In this document: piece by piece, positions 11,321 to 34,114 of the stretch
Layout of the letters: each line of letters begins with the position of its first letter
Numbering within the stretch: position 1 is the stretch's first letter
Assembly: GCA_001803635.1 (NCBI GenBank)
Contig: MHDU01000066.1
Span: forward strand, 1-44,744
Source: Nitrospirae bacterium GWB2_47_37
GTDB lineage: Bacteria > Nitrospirota > Thermodesulfovibrionia > Thermodesulfovibrionales > Dissulfurispiraceae
DNA: 44,744 nucleotides
Direction: 5' to 3'
Program-made: the position numbers and the translations under genes
Notes under the pieces: generated by a model
Told to the model about the DNA's origin: nothing
The model's input: only the letters and a program-made list of their open reading frames with translations
Databases searched by the model: none

Positions 11321-12409
11321 ATGCAGGATGTAGTTTCTCAGGTATCCAATTTCATAGACCTTAACTGGGTGAATATGACCTATCTTTTTCTGGTAGGATT
11401 TGTAGGAGGATTGGTAAGCGGTTTTATAGGCTCGGGCGGCGCGTTCGTGCTTACACCGGGAATGATGAGCCTTGGCGTTCCGGGGCTTGTGGCGGTTGCG
11501 AGTAATATGTGCCATAAGTTTCCAAAAGCTCTCGTAGGTTCGCTTAAGCGCGCCAAATACGGGCAGGTTGATGTTAAATTAGGCATAGTGCTCGGAATTT
11601 CCGCAGAGGCCGGCGTCCTCTATGGAGCGCACATTCAAGAAAACATTAAGAAGGCATTCGGAGACGCGGGCTCGAACCTTTATGTCAGCGTTGCCTTTGT
11701 AGTAATTCTTGCTGTGGTCGGCGGTTTTGTCTTGATGGATGCATGGAAGACATATAAGTCGGGAACAACGGATGCCGAAGAAAAAGTCACAAAGTTAGCG
11801 AAATGGGTTCAGTCCATTAACATACCGGGCACGATGGTTTATTTCAAGAGCCTTAACGCAAGGATTTCCGTTTTATTCACCATCCCTCTCGGTTTTGCAA
11901 CCGGCATGCTCGCGGCAACGATCGCGGTGGGCGGGTTTATCGGCGTTCCCGCGATGATATATGTGCTCGGCGCTCCGAGCCTTATGGCTTCCGCGACAGA
12001 GCTTGTTATCGCGTTCGTCATGGGTCTCGGCGGTTCTTTCAAATACGCAATGAGCGGCCTTGTGGATATAAGGCTTGCAATGATAATCCTCGCCGGTTCC
12101 CTTTTCGGGATTCAGCTCGGCGCGATCGGAACTACTTATGTGAAGCCCTTTATGATAAAGATGGTCATGGGCGTTATTATGGTAACGGTCCTTTTCAGCC
12201 GCGCGCTTATGGTGCCTGTTTATATGTCGCAGCTCGGACTTATAAGCGAGATTGGAGATACTGTTGTAAAGGCTTTGAAGAGCACGAGCTTTGCCATAAT
12301 GATATTCGCTTTGGCGCTCGGAGCGTTTATAGTCCTTAAGGCGATGTGGCAGGGACGCCGCGAGGAGAAATTAGCCGCGCAGGAAGCCGTAAGTCATGGT
12401 AAAATTTAA
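11321..12409 (+). CDS. TauE/SafE (TSUP) family anion permease, module 1
   Basis: 362 aa, AGGAGG upstream. TSUP permeases export or import sulfite, sulfoacetate, thiosulfate and related anions. The two signature half-repeats are visible: FLVGFVGGLVSGFIGSGGAF with VLTPGMMSLGVPG in the first half and ATGMLAATIAVGGFIGVPAM with IYVLGAPSLMASATEL in the second. About 8 membrane helices with a hydrophilic loop (AWKTYKSGTTDAEEKVTKLA). It is longer than the module 2 permease (305 aa) because of a longer N-terminus, middle loop and C-terminal tail. Co-transcription with Usp-like and FAEEGEF proteins and a sigma54 two-component pair suggests expression in response to its substrate. Substrate is not determinable from sequence. 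Confidence 0.9.
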   Translation: MQDVVSQVSNFIDLNWVNMTYLFLVGFVGGLVSGFIGSGGAFVLTPGMMSLGVPGLVAVASNMCHKFPKALVGSLKRAKYGQVDVKLGIVLGISAEAGVLYGAHIQENIKKAFGDAGSNLYVSVAFVVILAVVGGFVLMDAWKTYKSGTTDAEEKVTKLAKWVQSINIPGTMVYFKSLNARISVLFTIPLGFATGMLAATIAVGGFIGVPAMIYVLGAPSLMASATELVIAFVMGLGGSFKYAMSGLVDIRLAMIILAGSLFGIQLGAIGTTYVKPFMIKMVMGVIMVTVLFSRALMVPVYMSQLGLISEIGDTVVKALKSTSFAIMIFALALGAFIVLKAMWQGRREEKLAAQEAVSHGKI

Positions 12410-17042: not shown

Positions 17043-17960
17043 ATGTATCTTTATTTGCCGGTAGCATTAACGAGTATTAACATTATCATCCCTATCGGGC
17101 TTGGATTGGTGGTAGGCCTGCTATCAGGGCTTTTTGGTGTTGGCGGCGGCTTTCTTATGACCCCGCTCCTTATTATGTTAGGCATTCCTGCAACAGTTGC
17201 AGCTGCAACGGACTCCAACCAGATAGTTGCAGCCTCCACTTCGGGCACATACGCTCACTGGAAGGTAGGCAATGTGGATTTTAAGATGGGTTTTCATCTG
17301 CTGATAGGAGGATTTGTCGGAGGGCTTTTCGGAGTACAGGCCATAAAAATTCTCAGGGCGATGGGTAATGCGGATTTCGTAATAAAAATGACATACGTAT
17401 TGATGCTCGGCATAGTCGGGGCATATATGTTCATCGAGAGCATCCAGAGCATGAGGAAGAAAAAATTTGAAGACTCGAAGCCTGAGAAGGAATCAGGATT
17501 TTCCAAAGTTCTTAAATCGCTTCCTCTTCAAACGCATTACGAAAAATCGGGCGTTACACATTCGGCTTTAGTGCCGGTAATATTCGGCGGCTTTGTAGGG
17601 GTGCTTGCCGCGGTTATGGGCGTCGGCGGCGGTTTCCTGATGGTTCCGGTAATGGTCTATATCCTGAGAATGCCGATGCATGTAGTCGTGGGCACAAGCC
17701 TTTTCCAGATACTCTTTAACTGCATTGAAGTTACATTTCTTCAGGCGTATACGAACCACAATGTCGATTTTATCTTAGCCGTGCTCTTATTGCTCGGCTC
17801 TACAATAGGCGCTCAGGTCGGAGCGGTATTCGGCAGAAAACTCAAGGGCGAGCAGTTGAAGATAATACTCGCAGTGATAGTGCTGGTAGTGACGGTGAAG
17901 ATAGTCTTCGATCTCACGACGACGCCGTCATTGTTGCTCGGACAGGCAGGAGGGCACTAA
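17043..17960 (+). CDS. TauE/SafE (TSUP) family anion permease, module 2
   Basis: 305 aa, AAAGGAGG before the ATG. Signature half-repeats: VVGLLSGLFGVGGGFLMTPL with MLGIPATVAAATDSNQI in the first and VGVLAAVMGVGGGFLMVPVM with YILRMPMHVVVGTSLFQ in the second. About 8 transmembrane helices; cytoplasmic loop near MRKKKFEDSKPEKESG. The G-V-G-G-G-F-L-M motif is textbook TSUP. It is only distantly similar to the module 1 permease, so the two probably handle different anions. It overlaps the next gene by one base (TAATG), pointing to a fixed partnership with the Alph_Pro_TM protein. Confidence 0.93.
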   Translation: MYLYLPVALTSINIIIPIGLGLVVGLLSGLFGVGGGFLMTPLLIMLGIPATVAAATDSNQIVAASTSGTYAHWKVGNVDFKMGFHLLIGGFVGGLFGVQAIKILRAMGNADFVIKMTYVLMLGIVGAYMFIESIQSMRKKKFEDSKPEKESGFSKVLKSLPLQTHYEKSGVTHSALVPVIFGGFVGVLAAVMGVGGGFLMVPVMVYILRMPMHVVVGTSLFQILFNCIEVTFLQAYTNHNVDFILAVLLLLGSTIGAQVGAVFGRKLKGEQLKIILAVIVLVVTVKIVFDLTTTPSLLLGQAGGH

Positions 17961-24613: not shown

Positions 24614-24916
24614 ATGACACTCGGAATACTTGTCAACACGGATAACTACGGCGATGACATAAAGGGCATCGCGCAGGCGGCCGTTAAAAAAGGCCACAAG
24701 GTCATTATTTTTTTCATGGATAAAGGATGCCGCCTCGCAACGGCAGGCGGCATTGTTTCTCTCTGTAGTTCGGATAACATCTCAATGGGTATGTGCGACT
24801 ATAACCGTAATAAAATGGGGATTTCTAAGGAAGAATTGCCTGCCGGCATTGTCTGCGGCAGCCAGTATGATAACGCTGTGATGAACAGGGACGCCGACAA
24901 GGTAATGGTGTTTTAA
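24614..24916 (+). CDS. DsrE-family small sulfur-relay protein
   Basis: 100 aa. DsrE/TusD-like pattern: a first beta strand LGILVNTDNYGDDIKGIAQA, second strand HKVIIFFMDKGC, then the cysteine-bearing loop NISMGMCDYNRNKMG, where family members carry the persulfide-carrying Cys (here C61), ending ADKVMVF. Additional cysteines at 39, 51 and 81. Proteins of this family pass persulfide sulfur between partners in the Dsr/Tus systems. It overlaps the next gene by one base. No Shine-Dalgarno sequence is clear before ATG 24614. It is the first gene of the operon leading to the Sec-containing YeeE permease. Confidence 0.8.
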   Translation: MTLGILVNTDNYGDDIKGIAQAAVKKGHKVIIFFMDKGCRLATAGGIVSLCSSDNISMGMCDYNRNKMGISKEELPAGIVCGSQYDNAVMNRDADKVMVF

Positions 24917-25182
24917 TGAAAAAAATCGCAGTCATAGTACGGGACAGGCAGGCAGAGGCGCTGCGTATGGCCATCGGGCTTACAGTGCTTAATAAGGTGG
25001 ATGTTTACGTTCTCGATGGAAAACTCGAAGCATCCGGCGACATCGCCATGAACCTCGAAATGATAAGGGAGATTCGTATGGGGTTTTATACAAATACAAA
25101 AATGAATGAGGATATAGCCTATATGCCTATGGAGGATATTGCAAAAAGGCTTTTGGAATATGATAATATTCTCCCATATTGA
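24916..25182 (+). CDS. Cysteine-free small protein, DsrF/TusC-position
   Basis: 88 aa (KKIAVIVRDRQAEALRMAIG, LTVLNKVDVYVLDGKLEASG, ...). The alternating strand-helix pattern fits a DsrE/F fold, and its place between DsrE-like and DsrH-like genes matches the TusC/DsrF slot. It has no cysteine, so it would be structural rather than a sulfur carrier. It shares one base with the previous gene's stop (TAATG). Confidence 0.6.
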   Translation: MKKIAVIVRDRQAEALRMAIGLTVLNKVDVYVLDGKLEASGDIAMNLEMIREIRMGFYTNTKMNEDIAYMPMEDIAKRLLEYDNILPY

Positions 25183-25196
25183 TTTATGCCGATATT

Positions 25197-25364
25197 ATGA
25201 AAATTCTGCATATTCTGAAAACGGAGCCTGAAGCCGGCGTAAAGGCGGTAATAGAGGAGCATAGGAAATACCATGACGTTACCGTTATAGAGATGCATAA
25301 AAATAAAGATTATGATCTAATCGTGGAACTTATGGAGAGGGCGGATAAGGTTATTTCGTGGTAA
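25197..25364 (+). CDS. DsrH/TusB-like small protein
   Basis: 55 aa from ATG 25197 (KILHILKTEPEAGVKAVIEE...DYDLIVELMERADKVISW). A TTG at 25179 overlapping the previous stop would add six residues; the ATG gives the usual DsrH-like start. It ends in K-V-I-S-W as many DsrH/TusB proteins end in a similar short strand. The cysteine found in DsrH is missing, so it is an atypical or much-reduced member. It sits 43 bases before the YeeE permease. Assignment rests on position and pattern. Confidence 0.55.
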   Translation: MKILHILKTEPEAGVKAVIEEHRKYHDVTVIEMHKNKDYDLIVELMERADKVISW

Positions 25365-25407: not shown

Positions 25408-26505
25408 ATGGAGGGGATACCGCAGGCGAGCATCATGATTATTTTAAGCGGTGTGCTGGTGGGCGTAATATTCGGCTTTGTACTTCAGCGCGGCCGGTAT
25501 TGAATGAACTCAGCGTTCAGAGACGTGATCTTTGTAAACGATACGACTTTGCTGAGGGCATGGCTTTTGGCGCTTGTAATAGCCATCATAGGCGCTAATT
25601 TTATCGAGGATATAGGGCTGATGGGAGATGACGGTCTGCGCCGTCAGGCATTCGCCCCTATCGCCGCGATCATCGGCGGTTATATCTTCGGGCTCGGAAT
25701 CGTTATAGCAGGCGGGTGCGGCAGCGGTGTTCTGTATAAGCAGGGCGAGGGTCAGTTCGCCGCCACTATAGCTACATTCGGTTTCGGCGTAGGCCTGATT
25801 TCGACAATGCACGGCCCGCTCAAGCCCGTAAGTCAGTTTTTGAAGAGTTATAAGATGTCTGTAGGCACGGATGCGGCCGGCGATCCGATAGCAAGCCCTG
25901 CTTTATGGGATGTATTCGGAGGCGGGAATATCAAATGGATAATTATCGCTGTTATAGCGGCTATAATTATTCCGGTAGTGTTGAAGGGAAAACCCTTTGC
26001 CAAAGGCCCCAAGAAGGGCTGGTCATGGTCAGTCGGAGGAGCTTTGATAGGGGCGGTAGTAGTTCTTGCTTGGTGGGCTTCTTATTACTGGGGCGGACAG
26101 GCGAGGGGACTCTCATTCTCAGGCCCTCTTTCCGACTTTTTGATGTTCGTTCTTACCGCAAACAGCAGCGCTCCGTTTGATCCGATGTTCAGTATCCTCG
26201 GAATAGGCGTGGCTACATGGAGCGCCCTGTATGTCATAGGCGTTCCGGTGGGAGCTTATTTAAGCGCAAAAGGTCTCAGTGAATTTAAGCTCACGGCTCC
26301 GAAGGATCCGAATGAATTAGTAAGGGTCTTTTTCGGAGGACTTGTAATGGGGTTCGGCGGCGCAGTTGCAGGCGGTTGAACTGTGGGACATTCGCTGACA
26401 GGTATGTCGGCATTATCGCTTCAGAGCATAGCGGCTACGGTTTTCATTATACTCGGCAACTGGACTATGACTTACTTTATGTTCATTAAGCCGATGAAGG
26501 ATTAG
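25408..26505 (+). CDS. YeeE/YedE-family transporter with two predicted selenocysteines
   Basis: 365 aa if the in-frame TGA codons at 25501-25503 (residue 32) and 26377-26379 (residue 324) are read as Sec; the true stop is TAG at 26503-26505. GGGAGG precedes ATG 25408. Conserved YeeE motifs run straight through both TGAs: FVLQRGRY-U-MNSAFRD and GGAVAGG-U-TVGHSLTGMSAL, where relatives have Cys. A third conserved site keeps Cys (AGGCGSG, C104). About 9 membrane helices. YeeE/TsuA imports thiosulfate through a cysteine relay; YedE relatives are linked to selenium uptake. Here selenolates would line the path. Reading TGA as stop would split one protein into three fragments each lacking a key motif. 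Operon context with DsrE-type proteins supports a sulfur or selenium uptake role. The Sec machinery genes are not in the window. Confidence 0.9.
25515..25539 (+). promoter_or_regulatory. Predicted bacterial SECIS hairpin after Sec32 codon
   Basis: Stem GTT/AAC plus CAGAGA/TCTTTG (one G-U pair, 2-base bulge) closes a CGTGA loop at 25524-25528. The loop starts 21 bases after the TGA and has G as its second base, as bacterial SECIS models require. A longer outer pairing CTCAGC/GCTGAG (25510 and about 25550) could enclose it. Confidence 0.65.
26387..26408 (+). promoter_or_regulatory. Possible SECIS hairpin after Sec324 codon
   Basis: GACAT (26387-26391) pairs with ATGTC (26404-26408); with a T-T mismatch and one further C-G pair the loop begins with G at 26394. 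The loop lies about 14 bases after the TGA, slightly closer than usual, so this element is weaker than the first. Confidence 0.45.
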
Positions 26506-26648: not shown

Positions 26649-26834
26649 ATGAAGAGGATTTTAGCGTTGATAGTGGCTCTTCTTTTCGTATTCGCGGTTT
26701 CCACAGTAGCTATTGCTGCCGAGAAGCCTGCTGACGCAAAGGATAAGAAGGCAGACAAGGCGGACAAGAAGGACGATAAGAAGGCTGATACAAAGGATAC
26801 AAAGAAGAAGAAAAAGGCTATTGAAGGTTGCTAA
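26649..26834 (+). CDS. Secreted Lys/Asp-rich mini-protein ending in Cys
   Basis: 61 aa from ATG 26649, with GAGGAGGTGA 6 bases upstream. Signal peptide 1-22 (MKRILALIVALLFVFAVSTV, AIA|AE). The mature about 38 residues are almost only K, D, A and T (KDKKADKADKKDDKKADTKD, then TKKKKKAIEGC), with no hydrophobic core, and end in a single C-terminal Cys. No family was recognised. It has its own promoter and a strong terminator, so it is probably an abundant monocistronic product. Its charge pattern suggests binding to polyanions or metals, and the terminal Cys could be a tether (inference). Confidence 0.75.
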   Translation: MKRILALIVALLFVFAVSTVAIAAEKPADAKDKKADKADKKDDKKADTKDTKKKKKAIEGC

Positions 26835-26852
26835 TTGTTTAAATATAATTAA

Positions 26853-26886
26853 GGGTGGGAGCCGTAGGCTTTCACCCTATTTTTTT
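26853..26886 (+). terminator. Rho-independent terminator of the mini-protein gene
   Basis: GGGTGGGAGCC - GTA - GGCTTTCACCC forms an 11-bp stem (two G-U pairs) at 26853-26877, followed by TATTTTTTT. Confidence 0.9.
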
Positions 26887-32827: not shown

Positions 32828-34114
32828 ATGAGAGTATTCAAGCTTATTTTGGCGGTGCTTTTTATTGCTGTGCCGTTGACGGCGTTCGCCGCTGAGAAAA
32901 AGGCGAATTCCATCGACGAACTCGCAAAGATGTACGACGTATCTTCGTGTAAGGCATGTCATGCAAAGATTTATGAGGAATGGGAAAAATCCTATCATGC
33001 CGCATCTCTTATCGGTTCGCCCCGCACTATGGCAACCATAGCAAGCGCCGTGAAAGACGGGATGATGAAGGAATGGACAAAATCAGGGGTTAAAAAAGTA
33101 GAAGACATTAAGGTGGAACATATGCTGTCCTGCCTGAAATGTCATCTGCCTCAGATTAAAGACGCGACAGACGCTGTTGCTCAGGAGATAGCAAAGGCTG
33201 CCATTGACGGAGCAGCGGGTGATGAGGATGCACGCGCAAAGCTCAAAAAGGTCGGCATCAATTGTCTTGTCTGTCATAACACGAAGGCGCTTGTCCATAA
33301 GTGGGTTGACGGCGAGCCTGAAAAGGGCGTTGTTTACGGAAATAAAGATGGCGCCCATGCCGATCCAAAATACAAGTCCATGAAGAAGAGCCCGATAATG
33401 AAAGAGTCCATACTCTGCGGCCAATGCCACGGACTCGGTCCAAATTTCGATTTGGCAAATCCGACCCAGTGCGCAACTCAGTACGGCAGCTACCTGCATG
33501 CTTATGTCCCGTCCGGAGGATCCGAGACTTGTCAGGATTGCCATATGCACAAACATAAGACAGGACATTTCATGCCCGCATACAGGGATCCCTCTCAGGC
33601 GAAGAGCGCCGTGAAAGTTGATGTCGATACAAAGGCTTATTATACTTTCTACGCTCCTGCGAAAGGTCATATTCCCACGGCGGTTTTGACGGTGAAGATG
33701 ATTAGTAATGCGGGACATAGAATACCCGACGGCTGACCGTCTCCGAACAGGCTGGTCCTGGATGTGACCGCTAAGACGAAAGACGGTAAAGAAGTATTTA
33801 ATTCCTCTAAGATTTATATGCCGCAGTCTCCTGCTTACGGCAAGGGCGATAAGATGGTCTACGGGCCGTTCAGAAAGTCGGGCATGCTCCGCGATACGAG
33901 CCTTCAGCCCGGCAAAAAGACGGTAGAGACCTTCGAGATTAAATTCCCGTATGAAGAGAAAGACGGTAAGCCTGATCCCGCGACAATAAAGAGAGAGATA
34001 GACGTAACGATAAAACTCTGGTATATGCCTGCGGGCGGCGACCATAAAAAGGGTGTCGTAGATAAAGATCAATATCTCTTCTATGAGACAACAAAGACGG
34101 TAAAAGTGCAGTAA
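32828..34114 (+). CDS. Pentaheme c-type cytochrome with one predicted selenocysteine
   Basis: 428 aa if TGA at 33734-33736 is Sec (residue 303); AAGGAGGG precedes ATG 32828. Signal peptide 1-21 (MRVFKLILAVLFIAVPLTAF, AA). Five CxxCH motifs at 41-45, 102-106, 146-150, 197-201 and 235-239, with extra His (HMHKHKTGHF) as candidate distal ligands. The TGA lies in NAGHRIPDG-U-PSPNRLVLDV, at the start of a beta-rich C-terminal domain of about 125 residues. The frame continues openly with no frameshift and stops at TAA. A ribosome site is absent after the TGA, so a separate downstream gene is unlikely. Sec near the hemes suggests a catalytic or ligand role. The electron acceptor is unknown. Nonsense mutation remains possible. 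Confidence 0.8.
33739..33768 (+). promoter_or_regulatory. Candidate SECIS hairpin after Sec303 codon
   Basis: Inner stem CAGG (33748-33751)/CCTG (33757-33760) closes a CTGGT loop that begins 15 bases past the TGA; an outer GTC/GAC pair (33739-33741 with 33766-33768) frames it. G is at loop positions 3 and 4, so it fits the model less exactly than the first YeeE element. Confidence 0.45.

Follow-up and report, generated by a model that had tools for sequence, protein, structure and literature searches.

The gene reported here belongs with the YeeE/TsuA family of sulfur transporters. In YeeE of Spirochaeta thermophila (StYeeE), the relay cysteines are C22, C91, and C293 (PMC11073785). TsuA is proposed to hand thiosulfate from one cysteine thiol to the next by hydrogen bonds, and in E. 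coli TsuA requires YeeD. Clusters of the yeeE-tusA-dsrEFH kind (type II) have been described in Nitrospirota and other sulfate reducers (PMC13293266). A YeeE/YedE subfamily with one selenocysteine (Sec) in the motif GUxSG is already listed in reviews (PMC13188914, PMC9312934; WP_012471001.1).

The window analyzed is a DNA stretch of 44,744 nucleotides from Nitrospirae bacterium GWB2_47_37 (contig MHDU01000066.1), and the gene, termed yeeE-UU, occupies a single frame of 365 residues followed by TAG (Table 1). The only interruptions of the frame are two TGA codons, 32 and 324. When TGA is read as Sec, these lie in the contexts GRY-U-MNSAFRD and AGG-U-TVGHSLTG. Under standard annotation with translation table 11, only 291 residues of the protein are called, and this fragment contains neither active site. 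The frame encodes a YeeE/TsuA-type permease with two predicted selenocysteines; actual incorporation of selenium is inferred, as there is no protein-level or expression evidence.

Table 1. Features of the yeeE-UU locus, in window positions
Feature	Position	Strand	Evidence
DsrE-like sulfur carrier, invariant Cys61 and Cys81	24614..24916	+	PF02635 22 bits (just under cut-off); fold
Small protein, DsrF-like by position only	24916..25182	+	conservation next to dsrE and yeeE
Small protein, called DsrH/TusB-like from its position and size alone	25197..25364	+	gene order
yeeE-UU, YeeE/TsuA-type permease, 365 aa, two predicted selenocysteines	25408..26505	+	sequence, PF04143, orthologues, fold match 8k1r/6leo
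TGA at codon 32 (Sec 1), aligned with C22, the third relay cysteine of StYeeE, at the cytoplasmic exit	25501..25503	+	sequence, alignment
SECIS-like hairpin 1 (upper stem 25518-25534, loop CGTGA 25524-25528)	25514..25540	+	pairing, covariation
Codon 104 (TGC), aligned with C91 of StYeeE; every double-Sec orthologue has Cys here	25717..25719	+	alignment
TGA at codon 324 (Sec 2), aligned with C293, the first relay cysteine of StYeeE, on the entry side	26377..26379	+	sequence, alignment
SECIS-like hairpin 2 (loop GGTA 26401-26404)	26394..26411	+	pairing, covariation
Small secreted ExtJ-related protein with the C-terminus EGC-COOH	26649..26834	+	NF040942 matches of relatives
Terminator-like hairpin closing the dsrE-F-H-yeeE-extJ unit	26852..26878	+	hairpin
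ExtKL multiheme cytochrome, known selenoprotein family, in-frame TGA 33734-33736 (HRIPDG-U-PSPN)	32828..34114	+	NF040886 545.8 bits, cut-off 250

Membership in the superfamily is clear. The Sulf_transp profile (PF04143) matches residues 28–353 over profile positions 1–310 with 238.8 bits against a gathering cut-off of 27, and alignment to the crystallized Spirochaeta YeeE (E 6.7e-47) places U32 at C22, C104 at C91, and U324 at C293. The predicted model superposes on the YeeE-YeeD complex (8k1r) with Z 40.3 and an rmsd of 2.4 over 320 residues, and on 6leo with Z 38.5. The cut-offs of the TsuA models were not met (NF052577, 252.9 versus 400; NF041049, 149.1 versus 645), nor were those of the selenium YedE models (TIGR04112, 45.9 versus 200; NF033796, 88.4 versus 350). 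Among NCBIfam models the protein is nearest to TsuA, below cut-off, and far from selenium YedE. Because no NCBIfam cut-off is met, its substrate is not assigned by family.

Among 60 relatives, the orthologues of 16 genomes, including the source genome, carry precisely two TGAs, in every case at the codons that correspond to 32 and 324. The fifteen further genomes belong to the same order (Thermodesulfovibrionales, Nitrospirota), and their orthologues are 70%–92% identical. All three segments of the gene are under purifying selection in the double-Sec orthologues, with pN/pS of 0.19 before, 0.23 between, and 0.10 after the TGAs. Together, the orthologues and the selection in every segment rule out a frameshift, pseudogene, or assembly error. 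An exact-match search for the motif around the first TGA in 84,980 species genomes returned 13 stretches from assemblies of Nitrospirota/Thermodesulfovibrionales, one probably mis-binned contig, and one chance match. The latter, from Rhizobium (L088), shows no homology. The contig (L082, 3.4 kb), labeled “Bacteroidetes,” shows the same dsrE-F-H-yeeE order up to the start of yeeE with its first TGA; mis-binning is most likely, with lateral transfer not excluded.

Each TGA is followed by its own SECIS-like hairpin. The first (CAGAGA-CGTGA-TCTTTG plus a lower stem) has a loop that begins at the 21st base after the TGA and carries G in second place, and the second (GCTGACA-GGTA-TGTCGGC) has a loop that begins at the 22nd base and carries G in first place. 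The upper stem at site 1 is fully paired in 14 of 14 distinct double-Sec sequences versus 1 of 36 Cys homologues, and the stem at site 2 in 12 of 15 versus 1 of 26. The observed pairing was reached in none of 2000 synonymous-codon randomizations; this null assumes independent sequences, which makes the Cys homologues a better control. Compensatory changes are found at two pairs per site in the double-Sec set, for both hairpins, and slid structures are only 26%–58% paired, versus 95%–97%. Codon usage points to the same regions: out of 134 degenerate codons with an invariant amino acid, only 7 are invariant as codons, and 6 of these fall in the two hairpin regions (codons 38–42 in the site 1 hairpin and codon 332 in the site 2 loop), the seventh being elsewhere (Fisher p 1.7e-5). 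Each TGA thus has a conserved, covarying SECIS-like hairpin that is largely missing from the Cys homologues.

The source genome (2.47 Mb, 98% complete) is equipped to decode such codons. Profile searches gave matches to selA (625 bits), selB (391 bits), and selD (323 bits), the last interrupted by an in-frame TGA of its own (AAGUAAKMGP), and a tRNA-Sec was found at 71 bits, with which ARAGORN concurs. In the double-TGA genomes selB is matched in 16 of 16 and selA in 15 of 16, the exception being a genome that is 80% complete. TGA has kept its ordinary meaning elsewhere, ending 12 of the 44 window genes checked; because such ordinary stops exist in the window, genome-wide reassignment of TGA is ruled out. 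The ExtKL gene, a member of a known selenoprotein family, lies about six kilobases downstream of yeeE-UU; standard gene calling breaks this frame (32828-34114) into pieces.

A first-pass annotation, made from the sequence alone, had described one frame broken only by these two TGAs, both at Cys positions of family motifs, and had noted Cys at the third conserved position, C104. All of this held: the frame was confirmed on rereading, Cys homologues align at both sites, and residue 104 is Cys in 16 of 16 double-TGA orthologues. The hairpin with loop CGTGA, said to fit the SECIS rule, was likewise confirmed; the second hairpin was absent from that description and was found in the follow-up. The prediction of a double selenoprotein was supported by every genomic test that the annotation had proposed, with Sec machinery, homologues with TGA at the same codons, Cys homologues, and SECIS-like hairpins at both sites all found. 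Neither of two outcomes that it regarded as refuting was met: selA, selB, selD, and tRNA-Sec are not absent but all in the genome, and the idea that the TGAs are assembly errors is contradicted by their presence in 16 independent assemblies. The core prediction holds.

On the family tree, the double-Sec proteins form one clade (100/99 support), which includes a protein with Cys at 32 and Sec at 324 (G324), and the sister clade is all-Cys (100/99 support). Six state changes were counted at site 324 and four at site 32. More distant homologues in the order have a single Sec at the 324 site, for example in GGGUNIGHG. A lone Sec at this site, in GGUNIGHG, was observed at loci L045, L048-L050, L052-L054, L093, L097, and L098; the motif is unlike the GUxSG of the reviews. 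The converse pattern is seen in one pair of homologues (L055, L056), which have a lone TGA at the codon-32 site (QRGRFUMLSA) and Asp at the codon-324 site; these are distant YeeE proteins of a Sec-at-exit-only type. The GUxSG motif itself is carried by split, half-length YeeE forms (L057, GUPSG; L059, GUTSG). An assignment of GUxSG to the C104 position was considered and dropped, as the second-half motif of the split forms fits better. At L034, an all-Cys YeeE occupies the same kup-yeeE-extJ-trmJ locus and its site 2 region still folds into a SECIS-like structure, possibly as the result of a Sec-to-Cys reversion.

An all-Cys paralogue, 61%–66% identical, accompanies the double-Sec gene in 7 of the 16 double-TGA genomes (G001, G007, G008, G019, G020, G026, and G027; the copy in G001 is truncated by the contig end). 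A homologue search of the source genome found no close Cys paralogue. A LysR_Sec_metab regulator (308–319 bits versus an NCBIfam cut-off of 250) precedes the all-Cys paralogue in G007, G019, and G027, and one also lies upstream of the Cys paralogue in G041; YedF is encoded downstream of the all-Cys paralogue in G027 and G001. Control of the paralogue by this regulator is inferred from gene position, and G007, G019, and G027 would by inference resemble hosts of a Sec/Cys YeeE isozyme pair. HrsM, a related regulator from archaea, keeps Cys isogenes repressed as long as the selenium supply suffices (PMC11097638, PMC5322559). The loci with a selenium-metabolism LysR gene before the all-Cys YeeE paralogue are L101, L102, L103, and L140, and those with YedF downstream are L102 and L108.

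The DsrE-like protein encoded upstream of yeeE-UU matches the folds of DsrEFH (2hy5, Z 9.4) and TusBCD (2d1p, Z 9.3). No family match was found for the two small proteins that follow it, and profile searches against PDB sequences gave nothing usable; the names DsrF and DsrH are inferences from gene order and size alone. The trio is kept upstream at eight double-TGA loci, among them the window itself and L082, which is probably mis-binned, and is absent at several double-Sec loci. No TusA/YeeD gene was found in the yeeE-UU cluster, and no CPxP protein that could represent TusA is encoded between kup and trmJ in the window. At 11321-12409 and 17043-17960 the window also holds two TauE/SafE-family permeases among universal-stress-type genes, which are further candidate transporters of sulfur compounds.

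Downstream of yeeE-UU, the ExtJ-like gene is a shortened copy that scores 18.1 bits against NF040942 (cut-off 52.5); orthologous relatives reach 78 (L121) and 58.6 bits. The final three residues are EGC in most relatives, and GGY in some members beside other YeeE types. Such proteins, some with an extra beta-rich domain, were observed beside YeeE at L121, L122, L018, L023, L026, and other loci. The secreted EGC-COOH protein is a possible periplasmic sulfur carrier or permease partner. In G324 (L128, contig C113), the ExtJ-like gene ends in GAG GGT TGA TAA, where relatives have GAA GGC TGC TAA. Just 3′ of this is a 7-bp hairpin (loop TGGA) whose first base is the 13th after the TGA, and the cluster continues downstream with ExtKL, again with TGA, and a TusA-like gene. 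Profile search of this genome found selB, whereas selA was not found, and double stops are frequent in the ExtJ-like genes of relatives. The TGA could represent either a C-terminal selenocysteine or a nonsense loss of Cys followed by a terminator-like hairpin.

The reading preferred, with moderate confidence, is that yeeE-UU is an inner-membrane importer of sulfane sulfur, of the thiosulfate or polysulfide type, with selenolates at its entry and exit. It rests on TsuA homology and the DsrE neighbor. The sequence, orthologue conservation, SECIS covariation, decoding machinery, homology, and gene order are shown; selenium incorporation, substrate, relay order, partner roles, and regulation are inferred. 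In this scheme, SelB and tRNA-Sec would decode both UGAs, each by means of its own downstream hairpin. Sulfur, possibly delivered by the secreted ExtJ-like protein with its C-terminal Cys, would enter at U324, pass the central C104, and leave at U32, where the DsrE-type carrier encoded upstream would pick it up in the cytoplasm. In some relatives, the all-Cys paralogue beside the selenium-metabolism LysR gene may serve as a selenium-free backup.

Selenolates stay mostly deprotonated at neutral pH; they donate hydrogen bonds poorly but are much stronger nucleophiles. Selenolates at both ends of the pathway would, by inference and with the chemistry untested, favor a nucleophilic and possibly covalent hand-over over the hydrogen-bond relay of TsuA. 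The use of selenolates as the relay, already suggested in the first-pass annotation, remains an inference with respect to both substrate and chemistry. Because of these properties of the selenolate, a natural Sec-Cys-Sec transporter offers a system, ready to hand, in which a hydrogen-bond relay can be told from a covalent one. A bolder reading, which the evidence does not quite carry, has selenium acting at one hand-over after another: the secreted carrier, whose C-terminal residue is Cys (Sec in one relative), would pass sulfane sulfur to the entry selenolate, from which a covalent selenenyl-sulfide or persulfide would travel via the central Cys to an exit selenolate facing DsrE, with a selenium-repressed all-Cys set as backup. 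If true, chalcogen would be relayed covalently across a membrane channel, in contrast to the hydrogen bonding proposed for TsuA.

The alternative that deserves most attention keeps the double selenoprotein and changes the cargo, which would be selenium (selenide, perselenide, or selenotrisulfide derived from selenite) carried by a YedE-like importer. This is possible. YedE is a predicted selenium transporter (PMC5322559), the cluster has genes of the ExtJ and ExtKL families, which in Geobacter are part of a cluster linked to selenite/tellurite reduction, and the Cys paralogue is found near YedF and the selenium LysR. Against it, the TsuA score of 253 bits is far above the 88 and 46 bits obtained with the models of selenium YedE, a DsrE sulfur carrier is encoded upstream, and start-up would be hard for a selenium importer that itself needs two selenium atoms.

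Perhaps Sec serves chiefly to resist irreversible oxidation or to tune redox sensing, in SoxT1B-like signaling, and changes the transport rate little. Sec is often favored where oxidation must be reversible. SoxT1B, a YeeE-like protein, does have a signaling role (PMC11582611). This explanation is nonetheless unlikely, since no regulator gene adjoins the double-Sec gene, the hosts seem to be anaerobes, and the central Cys is not replaced. That the TGAs are real stops, sequencing errors, marks of a decayed gene, or products of genome-wide reassignment can be all but dismissed: the use of TGA as an ordinary stop in the window makes a stop reading possible in principle, but the same codons recur across independent assemblies under purifying selection, hairpins follow them, the paralogues have Cys at both sites, and the Sec machinery is complete.

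The first-pass annotation knew of no description of selenolate relay chemistry in this transporter family; Sec in the family is itself not new, given the reviewed one-Sec subfamily. No report of a two-Sec YeeE or of Sec at the C22 position was found in the literature searched; coverage was incomplete and an earlier mention is not excluded. Nothing relevant was found there on selenoproteins in Thermodesulfovibrio or in sulfur disproportionation. Within that literature, what is new is the second Sec, at the C22-equivalent cytoplasmic exit, and its conservation. In a selenoproteome of mostly single-Sec proteins, yeeE-UU would stand out as a transporter integral to the membrane whose two predicted Sec residues are decoded separately. 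The Sec/Cys pairs within single genomes, some beside a selenium LysR gene, make selenium-dependent control of sulfur import testable.

Compared with known systems, yeeE-UU shares its superfamily with the YedE permease of selenium metabolism (TIGR04112, NF033796), but its scores of 46 and 88 bits are far too low for that assignment. As in the ExtHIJKL cluster of Geobacter (PMC5877670), the window holds an ExtJ-like secreted protein and a Sec-containing ExtKL; the porin ExtI and the rhodanese ExtH, however, were not found adjoining, and a permease precedes ExtJ. In the YTD, or yeeE-tusA-dsrEFH type II, cluster known from sulfate reducers and cable bacteria (PMC13293266), and likewise in Nitrospirota, a YeeE-like permease also adjoins a DsrE-fold protein and a pair of small proteins, whereas the order in the window is dsrE-F-H-yeeE-extJ, without tusA and with Sec in the permease. 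The one-Sec GUxSG subfamily likewise consists of PF04143 proteins with Sec, and GUxSG fits the second-half site of the split forms, that is, codon 324. In contrast, yeeE-UU has two predicted Sec residues, in GRYUMN and GGUTVGH (GUTVG rather than GUxSG), and no Sec has been reported in that subfamily at the C22-equivalent GRYU site. With TsuA/YeeE of Spirochaeta thermophila (6LEO, 8K1R), yeeE-UU shares fold (Z 38–40), about 35% identity, length, the three relay positions, and the conserved GRxC(M/F)NSAFRD and AGGC motifs. It differs in that its cluster has a DsrE set upstream instead of a YeeD gene, and in the predicted replacement of two of the three relay cysteines by selenocysteine.
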